Shown in pieces: positions 3,716 through 55,642 of a stretch of 64,000 bases of DNA. The DNA lies in the IMG/VR virus record IMGVR_UViG_3300042549_002424, positions 1 to 64,000 of that record; one strand, 5' to 3'. The first letter of the stretch is position 1. Every line of letters starts with the position of its first letter. Below the pieces are notes generated by a model, which ran no database searches, was not told the origin of the DNA, and worked only from the letters and a program-made list of their open reading frames with translations. Source of the DNA: a virus. A program made the translations under genes and the position numbers.

Positions 3716-3723
3716 GCTAAATA
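3716..3723 (+). promoter_or_regulatory. Late-type promoter motif for gp48 baseplate unit
   Basis: The octamer GCTAAATA, one of a recurrent family of TCTAAATA-like motifs here, lies 32 bases before the gp48 ATG. It resembles the T4 late promoter element TATAAATA read by gp55. Promoter function is inferred. Confidence 0.55.
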
Positions 3724-48274: not shown

Positions 48275-48907
48275 ATGAAGTTCCTTAGAGAATCAGTCAA
48301 TACCAGTGATATTAGAGTTATCACTGAAGGCATCCAGAAAGATCTATTCATTGAAGGCATCTTTGCGCAAGCAGAAACAAAGAATAGAAATGGCAGAGTA
48401 TATCCACAGAAGATCATGGAATCTGCTGTTAAGACTTATGTCAATGAATATGTTTCTTCCAATCGTGCACTTGGTGAATTATCTCACCCAGAGAATCGCC
48501 CAACAGTAAAGCCAGAATTAGCAAGCCACCTTGTTACTGAATTCCGTATGGATGGTAATAATGTTATGGGTAAGGCGAAGGTACTCAACACACCACAGGG
48601 ACAGATCGTTAAGGGTTTGCTTGAGGGTGGAGTGAAACTTGGCGTATCTACTCGTGGTCTTGGATCAGTCACTGAGAGAGCTGGGTCGACGTATGTTGGT
48701 GATGACTATACGTTAATGGCAGTGGATGTGGTATCTGATCCATCTGGTATTGATTGCTGGGTTAACGCAATCAATGAGAGTCAAGATTGGACGATCACTG
48801 ATGACGGAAGAATCGTCGAAGCGATCAGAAAAGAATTGAAGAAGCAGAAACTAACTGAAGACAAGGCTTTGGCTATGTTCAGTAAGTTTTTACGCGATAT
48901 CAAATAA
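48275..48907 (+). CDS. gp21: Prohead core protease gp21
   Basis: This 210-aa serine protease (T4 212 aa) digests the scaffold and trims capsid and internal proteins after Glu. It has the peptidase U9/herpesvirus-type fold signatures: 'AETKNRNGRVYPQKIMESAV', the catalytic His in 'GELSHPENRP' (H71) and Ser in 'GVSTRGLGSV' (S125), then 'MAVDVVSDPSGIDCWVNAI'. Its action is relevant to the capsid-targeting peptide proposed for the gene at 54606. Confidence 0.95.
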   Translation: MKFLRESVNTSDIRVITEGIQKDLFIEGIFAQAETKNRNGRVYPQKIMESAVKTYVNEYVSSNRALGELSHPENRPTVKPELASHLVTEFRMDGNNVMGKAKVLNTPQGQIVKGLLEGGVKLGVSTRGLGSVTERAGSTYVGDDYTLMAVDVVSDPSGIDCWVNAINESQDWTITDDGRIVEAIRKELKKQKLTEDKALAMFSKFLRDIK

Positions 48908-48979: not shown

Positions 48980-49825
48980 ATGTCTATTGAACAAAAAATT
49001 GCACAACTGATGGAACAGGCTAAACAGCTCGAGTCATCGGATGAAGTTGTTTCTATTGAAGAAGAAACAACTGAAGAAGTCATTGCTGAAGAAAACAAAG
49101 AACAAGTTCAGAAGATCGACCTTGGTACTCTTTTTGAAGGTGAAGAGTTCTCGGTAGAATTTAAGTCTAAGGCAGCTGAGTTATTTGAAGCTGCAGTAGA
49201 AGCTCGTATCAAGCAAGAAATTGCTCAGATCGAAGAAGAAGTTTCACAGCGTTTAGTTAATGAGAGCGCTGAGTTAAAAGAGGGTCTTGTTGATAAAGTT
49301 GATGGATATCTCGACTACGTAGTCGAACAGTGGATGCAAAAGAATGAGCTCGCCCTTGATCGTGGTATTAAAGTCGAAATCTTTGAAAGTTTCGTAAGCG
49401 GAATGAAGGATCTTTTTGAAACTCATTATATCGAAGTTCCAGAAGAAAAGTTTGACCTAATGGAAAGTGTCGACGCAAAAGCAAAAACTCTTGAAGAACA
49501 AGTAGATTTTCTTACTGCACAAAACGTTGAATTACAGCAGAAGTTTAAGTTAGTCGCAAAAGAAAGACAAATCGAAGAAGCTGCTAAAGAGCTGACCGAT
49601 TTGGAAGCAGAGCGATTCAAACAACTCGCTGAAGAATTGGCGTATGATGATGAAGAATCATTCGGAAAGAAATTAGAACTCGTAAAAGAGAACTATATTT
49701 CGAAGTCAAAACAAGTGAAGGCAGTTGTTGAGTCAGTGGTAACTGATTCGCCTGTTGAACTTAATGAAGAAAAGCAAATCGATGCATCGATGGCGCGTTA
49801 TATGCATGCCTTCAAAGCACGATAA
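48980..49825 (+). CDS. gp22: Prohead scaffold protein gp22
   Basis: This 281-aa (T4 269 aa) very acidic, helical protein forms the main prohead core and is later degraded by gp21. Long coiled-coil stretches ('IEEEVSQRLVNESAELKEGL', 'KAKTLEEQVDFLTAQNVELQ') and the conserved 'EVPEEKFDLMESVDAK' and C-terminal 'ASMARYMHAFKAR' identify it. Many Glu residues offer gp21 sites. It precedes gp23 by 27 bases. Confidence 0.93.
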   Translation: MSIEQKIAQLMEQAKQLESSDEVVSIEEETTEEVIAEENKEQVQKIDLGTLFEGEEFSVEFKSKAAELFEAAVEARIKQEIAQIEEEVSQRLVNESAELKEGLVDKVDGYLDYVVEQWMQKNELALDRGIKVEIFESFVSGMKDLFETHYIEVPEEKFDLMESVDAKAKTLEEQVDFLTAQNVELQQKFKLVAKERQIEEAAKELTDLEAERFKQLAEELAYDDEESFGKKLELVKENYISKSKQVKAVVESVVTDSPVELNEEKQIDASMARYMHAFKAR

Positions 49826-49852: not shown

Positions 49853-51190
49853 ATGGAACAATCTCGTCCTGATCTAGTTAAGAAGTGGGCTCCTATTCTT
49901 GAGCACGCTGATCTTCCACAAATCAAAGATAACTACCGCAAGGAAGTTACTGCTGTTCTTCTTGAGAACCAAGAACGTGCTCAGCGCGAAGAGCGTCGTG
50001 CCCTGTTCGAAGACATTCCAAACGGATCGGCTGTTAGCGGTACATTCATGCCTGACAGTGGTGGTGTTGCTAAGTTTGACCCAGTTCTGATTAGCCTGGT
50101 TCGCCGTGCTATGCCAGCAATGGTCGCTTATGACATGTGCGGCGTTCAGCCAATGACCCAGCCTACAGGTCTGATCTTCGCAATGAAGTCAACCTATATG
50201 ACAAGTGCTGGTGTTCGTGGTTCAGAAGCTCTGTTCAACGAAGCTGACACTGGTTACTCGGGTGTTGCTGCTGGTGGTACTGCTGGTACTTCCAACACTG
50301 GTGCTGCTCAGTCTGCACTGAATGGTTCTACAACTCCGATCACATCGGGTACTGCTTTCCCAACGGCAACTGCTGAAAACCAAACTGGTACTGGTACTGG
50401 TACTACCCAGCAAAATAACGGCGCTGGTTTCAACCAGATGGGATTCACAATCGAAAAGACTTCAGTTACTGCGCAATCGCGTGCTCTGAAGGCTGAGTAC
50501 TCTGTTGAACTCGCACAGGACTTGAAGTCGGTTCACGGTCTTGACGCTGAAGCCGAGCTGAGCAACATCCTTTCGCAAGAAATCCTGGCTGAAATTAACC
50601 GCGAAGTTATTCGTACGGTTTACAACTCAGCTAAAGTTGGTGCTCAAGTCGGTACTGCTACTGCTGGTATTTTCGACCTTGACGTTGACTCGAATGGTCG
50701 TTGGTCAGTTGAGAAGTTCAAGGGTCTGATGTTCCAAATCGAACGCGAAGCAAATGCAATTTACCAAACGACACGTCGTGGTCGCGGTAACTTCATCGTT
50801 TGCTCAGCTGACGTTGCTTCGGCTCTGGCAATGGCTGGTGTTCTTGACTACGCTCCTGCGCTGTCAACGAACCTGAACGTTGACGAAGCAAGCAACACGT
50901 TTGCTGGTGTTCTGAATGGTAAGTACAAAGTGTATGTTGATCCATATGCTGCTAACCAATCAGCTGACCAATTCCTGTTGGTTGGTTACAAGGGTTCATC
51001 GGCATTCGACGCTGGTATCTTCTACTGCCCATACGTTCCGCTGCAACTGTACCGCGCTACAGACCCAGCAACGTTCCAGCCGAAGATCGCTTTCCGTACT
51101 CGCTACGGTATCGTTGCTAATCCGTTCACGGCTCTGACCGCTGGCGACAACATCTACTTCCGCAAGGTTCGCGTTCAGAACCTGATGTAA
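49853..51190 (+). CDS. gp23: Major capsid protein gp23
   Basis: This 445-aa HK97-fold capsid subunit (T4 521 aa) starts 'LVKKWAPILEHADLPQIKDN', like T4 gp23. It contains the conserved 'LVRRAMPAMVAYDMCGVQPM' followed by 'TQPTGLIFAMKSTY', then 'LKAEYSVELAQDLKSVHGLD', 'QEILAEINREVIRTVYN' and 'QPKIAFRTRYGIVANPF'. 'LFE' at residues 51-53 fits the gp21 cleavage consensus, so mature protein may begin near residue 54. Codons shift towards C-ending, strongly expressed forms compared with neighbours. A strong terminator follows. Confidence 0.97.
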   Translation: MEQSRPDLVKKWAPILEHADLPQIKDNYRKEVTAVLLENQERAQREERRALFEDIPNGSAVSGTFMPDSGGVAKFDPVLISLVRRAMPAMVAYDMCGVQPMTQPTGLIFAMKSTYMTSAGVRGSEALFNEADTGYSGVAAGGTAGTSNTGAAQSALNGSTTPITSGTAFPTATAENQTGTGTGTTQQNNGAGFNQMGFTIEKTSVTAQSRALKAEYSVELAQDLKSVHGLDAEAELSNILSQEILAEINREVIRTVYNSAKVGAQVGTATAGIFDLDVDSNGRWSVEKFKGLMFQIEREANAIYQTTRRGRGNFIVCSADVASALAMAGVLDYAPALSTNLNVDEASNTFAGVLNGKYKVYVDPYAANQSADQFLLVGYKGSSAFDAGIFYCPYVPLQLYRATDPATFQPKIAFRTRYGIVANPFTALTAGDNIYFRKVRVQNLM

Positions 51191-51211: not shown

Positions 51212-51235
51212 AAAAGGGAGCTTCGGCTCCCTTTT
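51212..51235 (+). terminator. Strong rho-independent terminator after gp23
   Basis: AAAAGGGAGC, a TTCG tetraloop and GCTCCCTTTT form a perfect 10-bp stem with a T-run. It isolates the head operon from the accessory genes that follow. Confidence 0.95.
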
Positions 51236-51241
51236 CAGTTG

Positions 51242-51249
51242 TCTAAATA
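51242..51249 (+). promoter_or_regulatory. Late-type promoter motif TCTAAATA before the AAA+ gene
   Basis: TCTAAATA starts seven bases after the gp23 terminator and lies 31 bases before the ATG at 51281, which has AGAGGG as ribosome site. It makes the 51281 block a separate late unit. Confidence 0.65.
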
Positions 51250-52811: not shown

Positions 52812-54593
52812 ATGAAAGTAGTGCATAAAGATTTACAGGCTCTTGGTGTTGATCAGGAGTCTGTAAGAAAATTCTTGAAGTACAAAGAAGCAGATGCTAA
52901 GGTAGGGGATGACCCGTATGCTTCATCTGCTAGTGAAAAGGCAAATAAGACCAAGGCGTATCGCGAACTGCATAAAGACCTCACCGCTAAAACCAAGAAT
53001 CCTAATGTTGCGATTCAAACTCTAAGTAACATTCATGACTATAAAGGAAAAGAAGCGATGTATGAAAGTATGATGTCATTCAAATCTTTCCTCGAGATCA
53101 ATGAATTGTCTAACGTCACCCTGGCTTCTTATAAAAAGAAAGCAGGAGAACAGGCAACAGCTGCTGATAAGGCAGGTGACTTCAAGAAAGGTAATAAGCG
53201 ATTCTCTGGTATTACCAAAGCAACGAAGAAACAATTTGCTAATCCAGTAAAAGAAGATTTTAATATCTGTGAAACAGCAGAATCTGGACTCGCTGCCAAA
53301 GCAGAAAAATCTGGTATCTCAATCGGTACGCTACGCAAAGTTTATAATCGCGGTATGGCAGCGTGGAACTCTGGCCATCGCCCAGGAACCACTCCACAAC
53401 AATGGGGTATGGCTCGCGTAAACTCTTACATCACCAAAGGCAAAGGTACATATCACGGAGCAGATAAAGACTTGCGTGAAGAAACCGTACAGGAGTCTGG
53501 TGGTACTGCTGTGTGGAAAAGTGGATGTTGTCATGTTGAAAAATATGGAGATGATGTATTTGCTCTATATGTTAATGATAAAAAACATAAATTTTACACT
53601 TCATTAAAAGATGCTAAAGCTGCGTCAGTTGAGTTTAATGGGAAAAATCTAGAAGAAAAAGAAGTTCCAAAAGATCCGGAGTCTGGACTGCCAAAGAAAT
53701 ATGTTGCTGGTCTTTCATCCTCTACTGCTAAAGCCAGGGCTGCGCACTTCAATAAAATGGATAAGAAAAGCGACAGCGACCCAACTGCATATGAACCAGC
53801 ACCTGGAGACGCAACTGCTAAAACCAAAACAAGTAAGCATACATTAAAGTATCGCGAAATGTATGGAGAAAGTATTGATGAGGAAATACTGGAAGCATGC
53901 TGGGTTGGTTATAAACAAGTTGGTGTGAAGAAAAAGGGAAATAGAATGGTTCCCAACTGCGTGGCAGAAGATGTTGATTATATGTTCCATCCTCTTATCG
54001 AAGCAGTAAATGCAATTGATAGTGGTGAGTATGACTACGAGGGCCAGATGGCCAGATTACAGTTACAAACTATCTGCCGCAACTCAAAAGATTTAGTTGA
54101 CATGCTTTCTGACGATGAGAATATGCCAGAGTGGGTTCAATCTAAAATAACTTTAGCTCAAGATTATATTAGTTCAGTTAGAGATTACTTACAATCTAAA
54201 GAAGAATTGGGTGAAAATCTAGAAGAACAATTCGATATAATCGAAGAAGTTGTTGAAGAGCTATCAGCTGAATATGGTATTGACTCTGAAGTAATTTGGG
54301 AAAACTTTGACGAGTTTACAGACGAAGAATTACTAGAATACGCAGTTGATGCCAAAGGGCACAAATCGTCCACTGGTGGATTGACACAAAAAGGTCGAGA
54401 TGCTTACAACGCCAAAGGCGGAAATTTGCAAGCACCAGTGACTACTCCGCCATCCAAACTGAAGCCAGGAAGTAAGGCAGCAAATCGTCGTAAGTCTTTC
54501 TGCGCACGTATGGGTGGTATGGAAGGTGCCATGAAAAAACCAAATGGTGAACCCACTCGCAAAGCACTAGCTCTGCGTAAATGGAATTGCTAA
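52812..54593 (+). CDS. Mosaic protein of phage-specific motif modules, possible internal head protein
   Basis: The start is taken at ATG 52812, one base after the AAA+ stop, giving 593 aa; an upstream in-frame start at 52752 lies inside that gene. Modules in order: a capsid-targeting-like peptide 'MSFKSFLEINELS' (88-100); a DUF5824-like region 'GISIGTLRKVYNRGMAAWNS' (168-187); a segment with 'LPKKYVAGLS' and 'PGDATAKTKTSKHTLKYREM' (293-350); 'ACWVGYKQVGVKKKG' (362-376); 'DYEGQMARLQLQTI' to 'WVQSKITLAQDYISSVRDYL' (408-460); and a DUF6321-like tail 'AANRRKSFCARMGGMEGAMK' then 'KALALRKWNC'. I know each as a recurring unit in large phages, usually on different proteins. Many are basic or Lys-rich, compatible with DNA contact in the head. 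Function is not known. Confidence 0.7.
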   Translation: MKVVHKDLQALGVDQESVRKFLKYKEADAKVGDDPYASSASEKANKTKAYRELHKDLTAKTKNPNVAIQTLSNIHDYKGKEAMYESMMSFKSFLEINELSNVTLASYKKKAGEQATAADKAGDFKKGNKRFSGITKATKKQFANPVKEDFNICETAESGLAAKAEKSGISIGTLRKVYNRGMAAWNSGHRPGTTPQQWGMARVNSYITKGKGTYHGADKDLREETVQESGGTAVWKSGCCHVEKYGDDVFALYVNDKKHKFYTSLKDAKAASVEFNGKNLEEKEVPKDPESGLPKKYVAGLSSSTAKARAAHFNKMDKKSDSDPTAYEPAPGDATAKTKTSKHTLKYREMYGESIDEEILEACWVGYKQVGVKKKGNRMVPNCVAEDVDYMFHPLIEAVNAIDSGEYDYEGQMARLQLQTICRNSKDLVDMLSDDENMPEWVQSKITLAQDYISSVRDYLQSKEELGENLEEQFDIIEEVVEELSAEYGIDSEVIWENFDEFTDEELLEYAVDAKGHKSSTGGLTQKGRDAYNAKGGNLQAPVTTPPSKLKPGSKAANRRKSFCARMGGMEGAMKKPNGEPTRKALALRKWNC

Positions 54594-54605: not shown

Positions 54606-55112
54606 ATGAAATCATTTAAGAGTTATCTTACTGAACAATACGCAGGAAACTACGTCTGTCTGGAAACAGAAGATATGTCGTTTTTCTTTGTAGACTGTGG
54701 AATTCCTGAGCCAACATCTGGGGTAGTTCCTCCAGATTTTCACTGTACAGTTATGTACTCTGAAATATCAGTTATTGAACCAGAAAGAGTTGCTAGCCTA
54801 TTGCGTACTTCTGGATTCAATAAACCATACATCGGTAAGATAATTGGGTTTGATCTTTTTGATTCACCTGAAGATAATACCAAGTGTTCTCTTGTCGCTA
54901 AAATAGAATGCCCTGAATTGATGCAAGCGCATGACTATCTAAAGGGTATTGGTCTACAACATTCTTATTCAGAATATTCACCGCATATTACTCTACGATA
55001 TGGAATGGATATTATTGAGGCAGCTAAATACAAAGAATTGCTAAGTGGTTGTACTGGTTCGGTTACGATGGCAAAGTTTAGAAGTGAGCCAATAAATAAA
55101 CATTACGTATGA
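54606..55112 (+). CDS. 2H phosphoesterase, Acb1-like anti-CBASS candidate with capsid-targeting-like N-terminus
   Basis: This 168-aa protein has two HxT motifs 81 residues apart: H46-C-T48 in 'PDFHCTVMYSE' and H127-I-T129 in 'SEYSPHITLRYG'. They define a 2H phosphoesterase. The surrounding 'FHCTVMYS' and 'HDYLKGIGLQHSYSEYSPHI' closely resemble phage Acb1 (T4 gp57B), which cleaves the cyclic oligonucleotide signals of CBASS defence. The first ten residues, 'MKSFKSYLTE', match the T4 capsid-targeting peptide pattern (as in 'MKTYQEFIAE'), where gp21 cuts after the Glu. This suggests the enzyme is packaged and injected. A general 2',3'-cyclic phosphodiesterase is the main alternative. It overlaps gp3 by four bases. 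Confidence 0.75.
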   Translation: MKSFKSYLTEQYAGNYVCLETEDMSFFFVDCGIPEPTSGVVPPDFHCTVMYSEISVIEPERVASLLRTSGFNKPYIGKIIGFDLFDSPEDNTKCSLVAKIECPELMQAHDYLKGIGLQHSYSEYSPHITLRYGMDIIEAAKYKELLSGCTGSVTMAKFRSEPINKHYV

Positions 55113-55642
55113 CTATTCTAACTTGCCCATCGCCGAGTAACATTAACCCATTAAATCCAAATGGATTTTTGTTCTCGGTCAGTAAACTCCCGGAACTAAC
55201 ATTCTTCGTTCAGGACGTAGAGTTGCCTTCTCTTAGTATCGGGACTGTTATCCAGTCATCAAGTGTTCAAGATATTAAGATTCCAGGAGAGACAGCTGAT
55301 TTTGGTAGTCTTAGTGTTGAGTTTCTTGTAGATGAACAGTTCGCCAACTATAAAGCAATTTATGCCTGGATGGTTGGATTGACATACCCAGAGACCCATG
55401 ATATGTATAAGGCATTCTTAGCCTCTGCAAAGAATGCGAACTCATACAGTGAACTGGCGAAGGGTTACTCTGATGCATCATTGACTATTCTCGATAGCAG
55501 CAATAATCCAGTTCAGAGAATTACGTTTATTGATGCGTTTCCAACATCGCTAAGTACATTACCATTTACCTCTCAGAGTAGTGATGTTCAATTCCTGAGA
55601 GCAACTGCTACGTTTGACTATACATATTATAAATTATCTTAA
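55109..55642 (+). CDS. gp3: Tail terminator gp3
   Basis: gp3 (177 aa; T4 176) terminates tail tube growth and caps the tail. Key matches are 'NPNGFLFSVSKLPELTFFVQ', 'VELPSLSIG', 'FGSLSVEFLVDEQFANYKAI' (T4: 'PLIVRFIVDEELKSWIGMYEWMLG'), and the closing 'FLRATATFDYTYYKL' strand. It overlaps the 2H phosphoesterase gene by four bases, so those two are likely translated together. Confidence 0.9.
   Translation: MTILTCPSPSNINPLNPNGFLFSVSKLPELTFFVQDVELPSLSIGTVIQSSSVQDIKIPGETADFGSLSVEFLVDEQFANYKAIYAWMVGLTYPETHDMYKAFLASAKNANSYSELAKGYSDASLTILDSSNNPVQRITFIDAFPTSLSTLPFTSQSSDVQFLRATATFDYTYYKLS

Follow-up and report, generated by a model that had tools for sequence, protein, structure and literature searches.

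Introduction

Does a T4-like phage carry an enzyme against CBASS signals in its head and inject it with its DNA? The question is raised by one gene in the window, by which we mean the whole stretch of 64,000 nucleotides that was analysed; it belongs to a 79,395-base virus record. Proteins that enter the cell from the phage head are familiar: T4 Alt and the DarA/DarB-type proteins of phage P1 are injected anti-host proteins, head-carried proteins or enzymes that act in the host immediately. The closer parallel is provided by the T4 internal proteins, tagged cargo with a tested target, which are injected and all three of which block the GmrSD restriction enzymes of the host (PMC12373910). The papers cited here by PMC number were available in part only, and statements that rest on them are limited to those parts.

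An earlier note, made from the DNA letters without database searches, had read the gene as an Acb1-like phosphoesterase that is packaged through an N-terminal peptide, cut by the prohead protease gp21 and injected. Here we report a computational analysis of this proposal.

Results

The gene lies in a head gene cluster

The protein recurs with 100% identity in a record of 147,921 bases from the same phage (hereafter the 148-kb record). This phage is T4-like, and its gp23 is closest to those of cyanophages (60% to P-TIM40). Genes for gp21, gp22 and gp23 are followed by a 509-aa open reading frame (ORF) carrying an ATP-binding motif, a DUF5824/DUF6321 protein, the Acb1 gene, a gp3-like ORF, uvsY and a helicase gene (Table 1). 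The Acb1 gene stands 5.7 kb behind the gp21 gene, and its end overlaps by 4 bases the start of the gp3-like ORF, which directly precedes uvsY. We call that ORF gp3-like because its position equals that of the 'T4 gp3-like' gene of syn9; the phrog_45 profile says 'tail tube' only. Both the ORF itself and the placement claimed for it, after gp23 and overlapping gp3, were borne out.

Table 1 Features of the Acb1 locus (window positions)
Feature	Positions	Strand	Remarks
gp21-type prohead protease	48275..48907	+	phrog_207, E 6.2e-67; PF03420 in 148-kb record
gp22-type head scaffolding core protein	48980..49825	+	phrog_237
gp23 major head protein	49853..51190	+	phrog_138
Terminator-like hairpin GGGAGC-TTCG-GCTCCC, then TTTT, behind gp23	51216..51235	+	Read in sequence
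Late-promoter-like CTAAATA, opens unit with Acb1 gene	51243..51249	+	38 bp upstream of unit
DUF5824 + DUF6321 neighbour, internal tag-like MMSFKSFLEINE	52812..54593	+	
Acb1-family anti-CBASS 2H phosphoesterase gene	54606..55112	+	ATG start, 168 aa
Capsid-targeting-like tag MKSFKSYLTE, codons 1-10	54606..54635	+	Fits T4 IPIII at 4, 7, 8, 10
First catalytic motif H46-C-T48	54741..54749	+	H, T invariant in 50 aligned sequences
Second catalytic motif H127-I-T129	54984..54992	+	H invariant; position 129 T 41/50, S 9/50
gp3-like tail protein (tail-tube family)	55109..55642	+	phrog_45; position as in syn9

Two side observations concern the surroundings. The upstream DUF5824/DUF6321 neighbour contains the tag-like peptide in frame at residue 87 (window 53070-53105), where a relative, L003, has MMSFKSFIEEA; this peptide may mark an internal start or cut site, or else be a fused tag. 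Beyond the window, the gene for the replicative helicase is followed by eight consecutive tRNA genes (L005:12803-14032; record 76803-78032).

The window protein is an Acb1-family member

The window protein met every Acb1 feature that could be tested. It matched the Pfam profile of anti-CBASS protein Acb1 (PF23474) with 52.1 bits against a cut-off of 27, and PHROG 755 as well, and it retrieved the solved Acb1 of FBB1 by sequence alone (E 8e-7). Each of the 50 sequences in an alignment that combined the window protein with 49 relatives matched PF23474, and an AlphaFold model built from this alignment reached a mean pLDDT of 92.5. The earlier note had proposed comparing a predicted structure with Acb1; in that comparison the four best PDB rows by Z were solved Acb1 entries (15.0, 14.8, 14.5 and 13.8), among them 9Q2G at 15.0 and 7T27 at 14.5 (rmsd 2.4, 136 aligned), and other 2H enzymes ranked below them with Z of 12.0 and lower.

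The active site is likewise preserved. The catalytic residues reported for Acb1, H44, T46, H113 and T115 (available part of PMC9117128), map to H46, T48, H127 and T129, the two HxT motifs on which the Acb1-like assignment had originally been based. The base contacts given in the same source, Y12, W74, F107 and W147, correspond to the aromatic residues Y16, F85, Y121 and Y167, and the adenine-contacting E141 corresponds to E161; beyond residue 80, positions in the FBB1 row exceed the published numbers by one, and the map was corrected by eye. Because catalytic and base-contact residues are kept, cleavage of adenosine-containing cyclic di- and trinucleotides is expected, although catalysis by this protein remains an inference; the activity that defines Acb1 is directed at 3',3'-cGAMP, cUA and cAAA and spares cGG. 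Profile, fold, the HxT/HxT tetrad and the base-contact positions are thus common to the window protein and the known Acb1s, namely T4 gp57B and the proteins of Erwinia phage FBB1 (7T26/7T27) and Burkholderia phage BCSR5 (9Q2G/9Q2Y), with an identity to FBB1 of 21-23% over the fold. In contrast to the window protein, T4 57B and FBB1 Acb1 lack the full N-terminal tag, and the T4 gene stands beside 57A and ipI instead of in the head gene cluster.

Could the protein be a 2H enzyme of RNA metabolism, of the LigT or 2'-5' RNA ligase type, and not a cyclic-nucleotide nuclease? PHROG 755 is named RNA ligase, 14 of the 50 aligned members also match PF13563, and LigT-type chains attain Z of 10-11. However, the window protein matched neither PF13563 nor PF02834 at E 0.001 while exceeding the cut-off of PF23474, which was its sole Pfam match even at E 10, and it keeps the adenine-contacting Glu and the aromatic contacts; moreover, cGAMP nuclease activity has been proven for T4 57B, which shares this PHROG-type annotation, according to the accessible text of PMC9117128. 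An RNA-metabolism enzyme is therefore scarcely credible here. PADLOC and NCBIfam searches returned nothing, nor did Rfam around the Acb1 gene, and a neurotoxin name on two rows with E of about 0.7 was regarded as chance.

The N-terminal decapeptide fits the T4 head-targeting signal

Head targeting of T4 IPIII needs just its first ten residues, of which 4 and 7 matter most for targeting, and 8 and 10 for processing (PMC9026906, as far as available). With F4, Y7, L8 and E10, the window protein fits the signal of IPII and IPIII at all four positions. The phage also resembles T4 in having gp21 and gp22 homologues, and the window protein resembles the T4 internal proteins in being an anti-defence payload, if it is packaged; the T4 payload inhibits GmrSD restriction enzymes (PMC12373910, available part), whereas the presumed payload of the window phage is an enzyme against CBASS signals. 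A gp21 cut after Glu10 is predicted from this likeness. T4 Alt has a different propeptide (N-terminus MELITELFDE). The P1 DarA/DarB-type proteins are not known to be tagged like the window Acb1.

We defined the strict tag as M..[FYW]..[FYW][LIVM].E. Across the whole T4 genome, only three of 2,963 in-frame start codons matched it, those of IPII, IPIII and gp61.1. Among loci retrieved with Acb1 queries, it occurred at 52 distinct ATG starts, compared with 0-5 ATG starts for each of 25 control patterns in which the same residue classes were rearranged. Acb1s account for 15 of the 52; the other 37 include many internal-protein-like genes that directly follow 57B in the genomes of enteric T4-like phages. 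On the strength of the T4 scan and the rearranged patterns, we reject a chance tag. In the 148-kb record, the DNA form of the pattern (ATGA start) was found once, on the Acb1 gene, and its reversed control not at all; that this record holds a single strict tag counts against the packaging reading.

In the structural model, residues 4-11 form a helix of low confidence (first-block mean pLDDT about 66), and the fold proper starts at 15. In 19 tagged Acb1s, the Glu is followed by a spacer of 3-7 residues before the fold reaches its first conserved Gly, so a cut after the Glu would spare the enzyme.

Two observations on T4 itself may be added. The sole strict tag besides those of IPII and IPIII belongs to gp61.1, a 54-aa protein with MKTFKEFIKEDMVAGDSGG (L157, phage T4, minus strand from 19130). 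The gene 57B adjoins ipI (L158, 73591-74410), and its product begins with MMEFKDFSTG, which is similar to the IPI start MKTFKEFTST but lacks the cut site; T4 Acb1 might once have been cargo, or be cargo in part.

The tag recurs on divergent Acb1s

The tag together with the active-site motifs was matched by 33 stretches in the virus collection. By eye, 15 of these were tagged Acb1-like proteins, and the remainder consisted of tagged proteins of other kinds, chance frames and a single truncated copy. Searches with tag-free cores yielded 25 (group A5) and 71 (group A6) distinct complete proteins after near-identical, 5'-open and short rows had been removed (114 loci, 100 distinct cores, 96 retained), and the strict tag was present in 13/25 and 2/71, respectively. 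Seven of the 25 A5 proteins had been search seeds, all of them tagged, five first found by the tag pattern; without the seeds, 6/18 bear the strict tag and 2 more a looser one. Both strict-tag proteins of A6 were seeds, and L133 and L137 were looser matches.

On a tree of 102 Acb1 rows built without the tag columns (129 columns kept), the 19 tagged rows require at least 11 gains or losses of the tag, of which well-supported branches impose no fewer than 5. The tagged rows fall within the clade of the window protein and within the L033/L070/L075 clade, and four stand alone (L024, L077, L113 and L133). Four odd fusions except L058 were left out of the tree, 35 of its 98 inner branches were unresolved, and L024 and L033 had come from the tag search.

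The gp21 family (PF03420) was detected in 18/36 and 28/50 of the records searched, which covered 33 of the 34 A5-search loci plus 3 others and 50 of the 80 A6-search loci, respectively; many of these records are fragments. In 12 records having both genes, gp21 lies about 2.8-18.1 kb from the tagged or near-tagged Acb1. The 43.6-kb record L024 carries the tag without yielding any gp21 match.

One unusual arrangement deserves mention. In L058 (5281-6378; the same in L059), a 366-aa fusion joins an ADP-ribosyltransferase (PF18760) to an Acb1 (PF23474), with the tag-like LIESLDAFLSEA at the junction. The protease gp21 could in principle separate the two enzymes, and the PF03420 search gave no gp21 match in the L058 and L059 records (46 and 19 kb).

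The tag is shared by unrelated enzymes

The stricter DNA form of the tag, searched alone, was found in at least 120 stretches, with at least 131 in-frame matches, at least 128 of them distinct. Among the matches listed, the tag lay fewer than 60 codons from the upstream stop in all cases except one. We scanned with Pfam 74 of the 104 complete proteins of at least 80 aa among the matches listed, near-copies being omitted. Within the best 25 of 27 families thus obtained for the matches listed, S-adenosylmethionine (SAM) lyase occurred three times; DUF6267, DUF6321, DPBB, DUF2608 and cytidylyltransferase-like proteins twice each; and adenylate kinase, ADP-ribosyltransferase, HD_4, acetyltransferase, methyltransferase and HAD phosphatase once each. 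The tag is modular, since it is found on many unrelated enzyme families. In cyanophage syn9, the cytidyltransferase gp184 (MKKFSAFLSEA) was the sole tagged protein among 20 whose starts were inspected; its record line mentions no virion detection.

Tagged proteins of two other T4-like phages were detected in virions

The virion proteome of cyanophage S-CREM2 comprises 52 proteins (PMC10665884, as far as available). Scanning 4,729 start codons of its genome, we found the tag in T4 register on four annotated genes, gp6 (SAM hydrolase, MKDFDSFLEE), gp14 (kinase, MKRFDAFLTE), gp154 (cytidylyltransferase, MKNFSSFLTE) and gp136 (MQTFSMFFSE, with F at position 8), and all four products are in the virion proteome, as compared with 52/219 genes (24%) overall (hypergeometric P 0.003). 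Restricting position 8 to L, I, V or M gives 3/3 (P 0.013). A looser pattern adds gp30, out of register and undetected, which gives 4/5 (P 0.012), and also matches inside nrdA. The near-tagged gp13 (MKDLHSFLTE) was detected in virions.

Cyanophage S-SCSM1 has two tagged genes, one of which is represented in the proteome: its NMNAT (MKSFLQFLKE) was detected, and the 106-aa ORF30 carries no virion-protein label. Four further pattern matches fall inside genes or in other frames. We counted 48 virion-labelled genes by hand (including ORF207) and used the 45 of the paper (PMC9602691, available part). Pooling both phages, 5/6 tagged genes versus 97/501 genes were detected (Fisher P 0.0013). These non-structural proteins, a SAM hydrolase, an APH/ChoK-like kinase and cytidylyltransferase/NMNAT enzymes, thus bear the same tag as the window Acb1 on folds other than that of Acb1, and according to the accessible parts of PMC10665884 and PMC9602691 they were detected in CsCl-purified virions. 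The authors suggest there that such enzymes may travel in the virion; those parts contain no mention of a targeting tag. Residence of the window Acb1 in virions is inferred, its only support being these virion data for tagged proteins from other phages. The unlabelled S-SCSM1 ORF30 and the undetected, loosely tagged S-CREM2 gp30 speak against the packaging reading.

Alternatively, Acb1 might act only in the producing cell, its N-terminal helix being a family feature or folding aid and the virion detections carry-over. The untagged Acb1s of T4 (57B) and Cronus likewise have aromatics at positions 4 and 7, and F4 and F7 could partly be a family feature, since the 57B start has both. T4 Acb1 activity from about 15 min comes in time for CBASS (PMC9117128, available text), and the S-SCSM1 authors, in the available part of PMC9602691, concede that proteins may remain in suspension after CsCl purification. 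However, the solved Acb1 structures align with the window protein only from residue 10-13 in four rows, the helix being the least certain part of the model; unrelated enzymes carry the tag with the same four key positions; and in S-CREM2 the in-register tag goes with detection in every case. We therefore regard action in the producing cell alone as unlikely and prefer packaging.

The tag reading gained support from three sides, the T4 control, recurrence on divergent Acb1s and unrelated cargo, and the virion data of two other phages; the decapeptide reported in the earlier note is present, fits the T4 pattern and exceeds chance in the T4 and permuted-pattern controls.

Two observations on S-CREM2 stand apart. 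Its gp12 (L290:7704-10313), in the virion proteome, has a tag-like LRFASFMAEA near residues 17-26; it is annotated as a Cas9/Csn1 endonuclease, a name that is doubtful because no Pfam family was matched at E 0.001. In addition, gp6 and the tagged metagenomic protein L214 both belong to PF23780.

The Acb1 gene is most likely expressed late

Of the 15 plus-strand sites of the heptamer CTAAATA, 10 precede a listed ORF start by no more than 60 bp, the highest share among 83 composition-matched heptamers having at least 5 sites (mean 11.5%); the ORF starts were taken from a hand-typed list. It is likely the late-promoter core of the window phage. On the plus strand of the window, it occurs 5-52 bp before structural gene starts at 3717, 9154, 13077, 27300, 34565, 39110, 43035, 45071, 48949 and 51243. 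Because the site at 51243 opens its unit, the Acb1 gene is most likely late, a timing inferred without expression data. A scan for the T4 late box TATAAATA was uninformative (5 window sites versus a mean of 3.2 in shuffles), and a consensus scan did not list the hairpin behind gp23.

The earlier note had argued that a place in a late unit favours a virion protein over an early-expressed inhibitor. The late-looking position held up and fits packaging, but position alone is not decisive, because T4 Acb1, too, becomes active no earlier than about 15 min after infection starts, in step with CBASS, which sets in late (PMC9117128, as far as available).

Discussion

We consider it probable that the window Acb1 is virion cargo of the internal-protein type, made late, packaged, cut by gp21 and injected against CBASS nucleotides. 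As we envisage it, the nuclease would be synthesised late, its N-terminal helix would bind the prohead core, and the shell would close around it. The protease gp21 would then cut after Glu10, leaving a 158-residue enzyme stored in the head with the DNA. On infection, this enzyme would enter the next cell with the DNA and cleave CBASS cyclic di- and trinucleotides upon their appearance. Late synthesis and the tag have the support of gene position and sequence; binding, cut, entry and nucleotide cleavage are drawn by analogy from the T4 internal proteins. The first reading of this locus was correct on the sequence, and very probably on its meaning too.

Even an enzyme that is packaged and cut might work inside the virion or be lost on maturation, without delivery. 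In T4, gp21 cuts core proteins into fragments (PMC5694885, available part), and we saw no injection data for tagged enzymes beyond T-even phages. Against this, the T4 internal proteins that bear the signal do enter the cell by injection and target enzymes of the host (PMC12373910, available part), and the cargo types found here, SAM lyase, ADP-ribosyltransferase, cytidylyltransferase/NMNAT and kinase, have their substrates in the host cell. Packaging without delivery thus appears very unlikely, and injection, though inferred for this phage, remains our preferred reading. What it gains may be little, as CBASS acts late (PMC9117128, accessible text).

If injection is true, counter-defence would begin before any phage gene is read, and the anti-CBASS start would shift from the roughly 15 min of T4 Acb1 (same source, in part) to time zero. 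Virion delivery would then extend to signal-based immunity. The combination of Acb1 with a head-packaging tag is apparently new: in the open-licence literature, none of the matches listed dealt with an Acb1 that is packaged or bears a tag, and the available part of the review PMC10286901 covers Acb1 and IPI separately.

The larger prize is the wider reading, in which the decapeptide serves generally as an address label that loads a mixed enzyme arsenal into T4-like heads in many habitats. We lean towards it, with less assurance than for the window phage. The arsenal would include an anti-CBASS nuclease, a SAM lyase, NMNAT, an HD-domain hydrolase, an ADP-ribosyltransferase and kinases; N-termini alone would list the injected effectors of a phage, and fusions such as that in L058 could set free two effectors after being packaged as a single chain. 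The old question of which proteins a phage injects, and for what reason, can now be searched in any T4-like genome, because the tag is short, common and at gene starts. Such a search is checkable by virion proteomics, partly on published data.

Among the tagged genes, some stand in runs, with four in succession in L203 (2357-3910) and L263 (6505-9422) and two each in L177, L262 and L280; the runs in L203 and L263 look like head-cargo cassettes. The tagged HD_4 protein of L195 (279-842) matches PF13328, a domain of ppGpp hydrolases, and is possibly an injected alarmone hydrolase.
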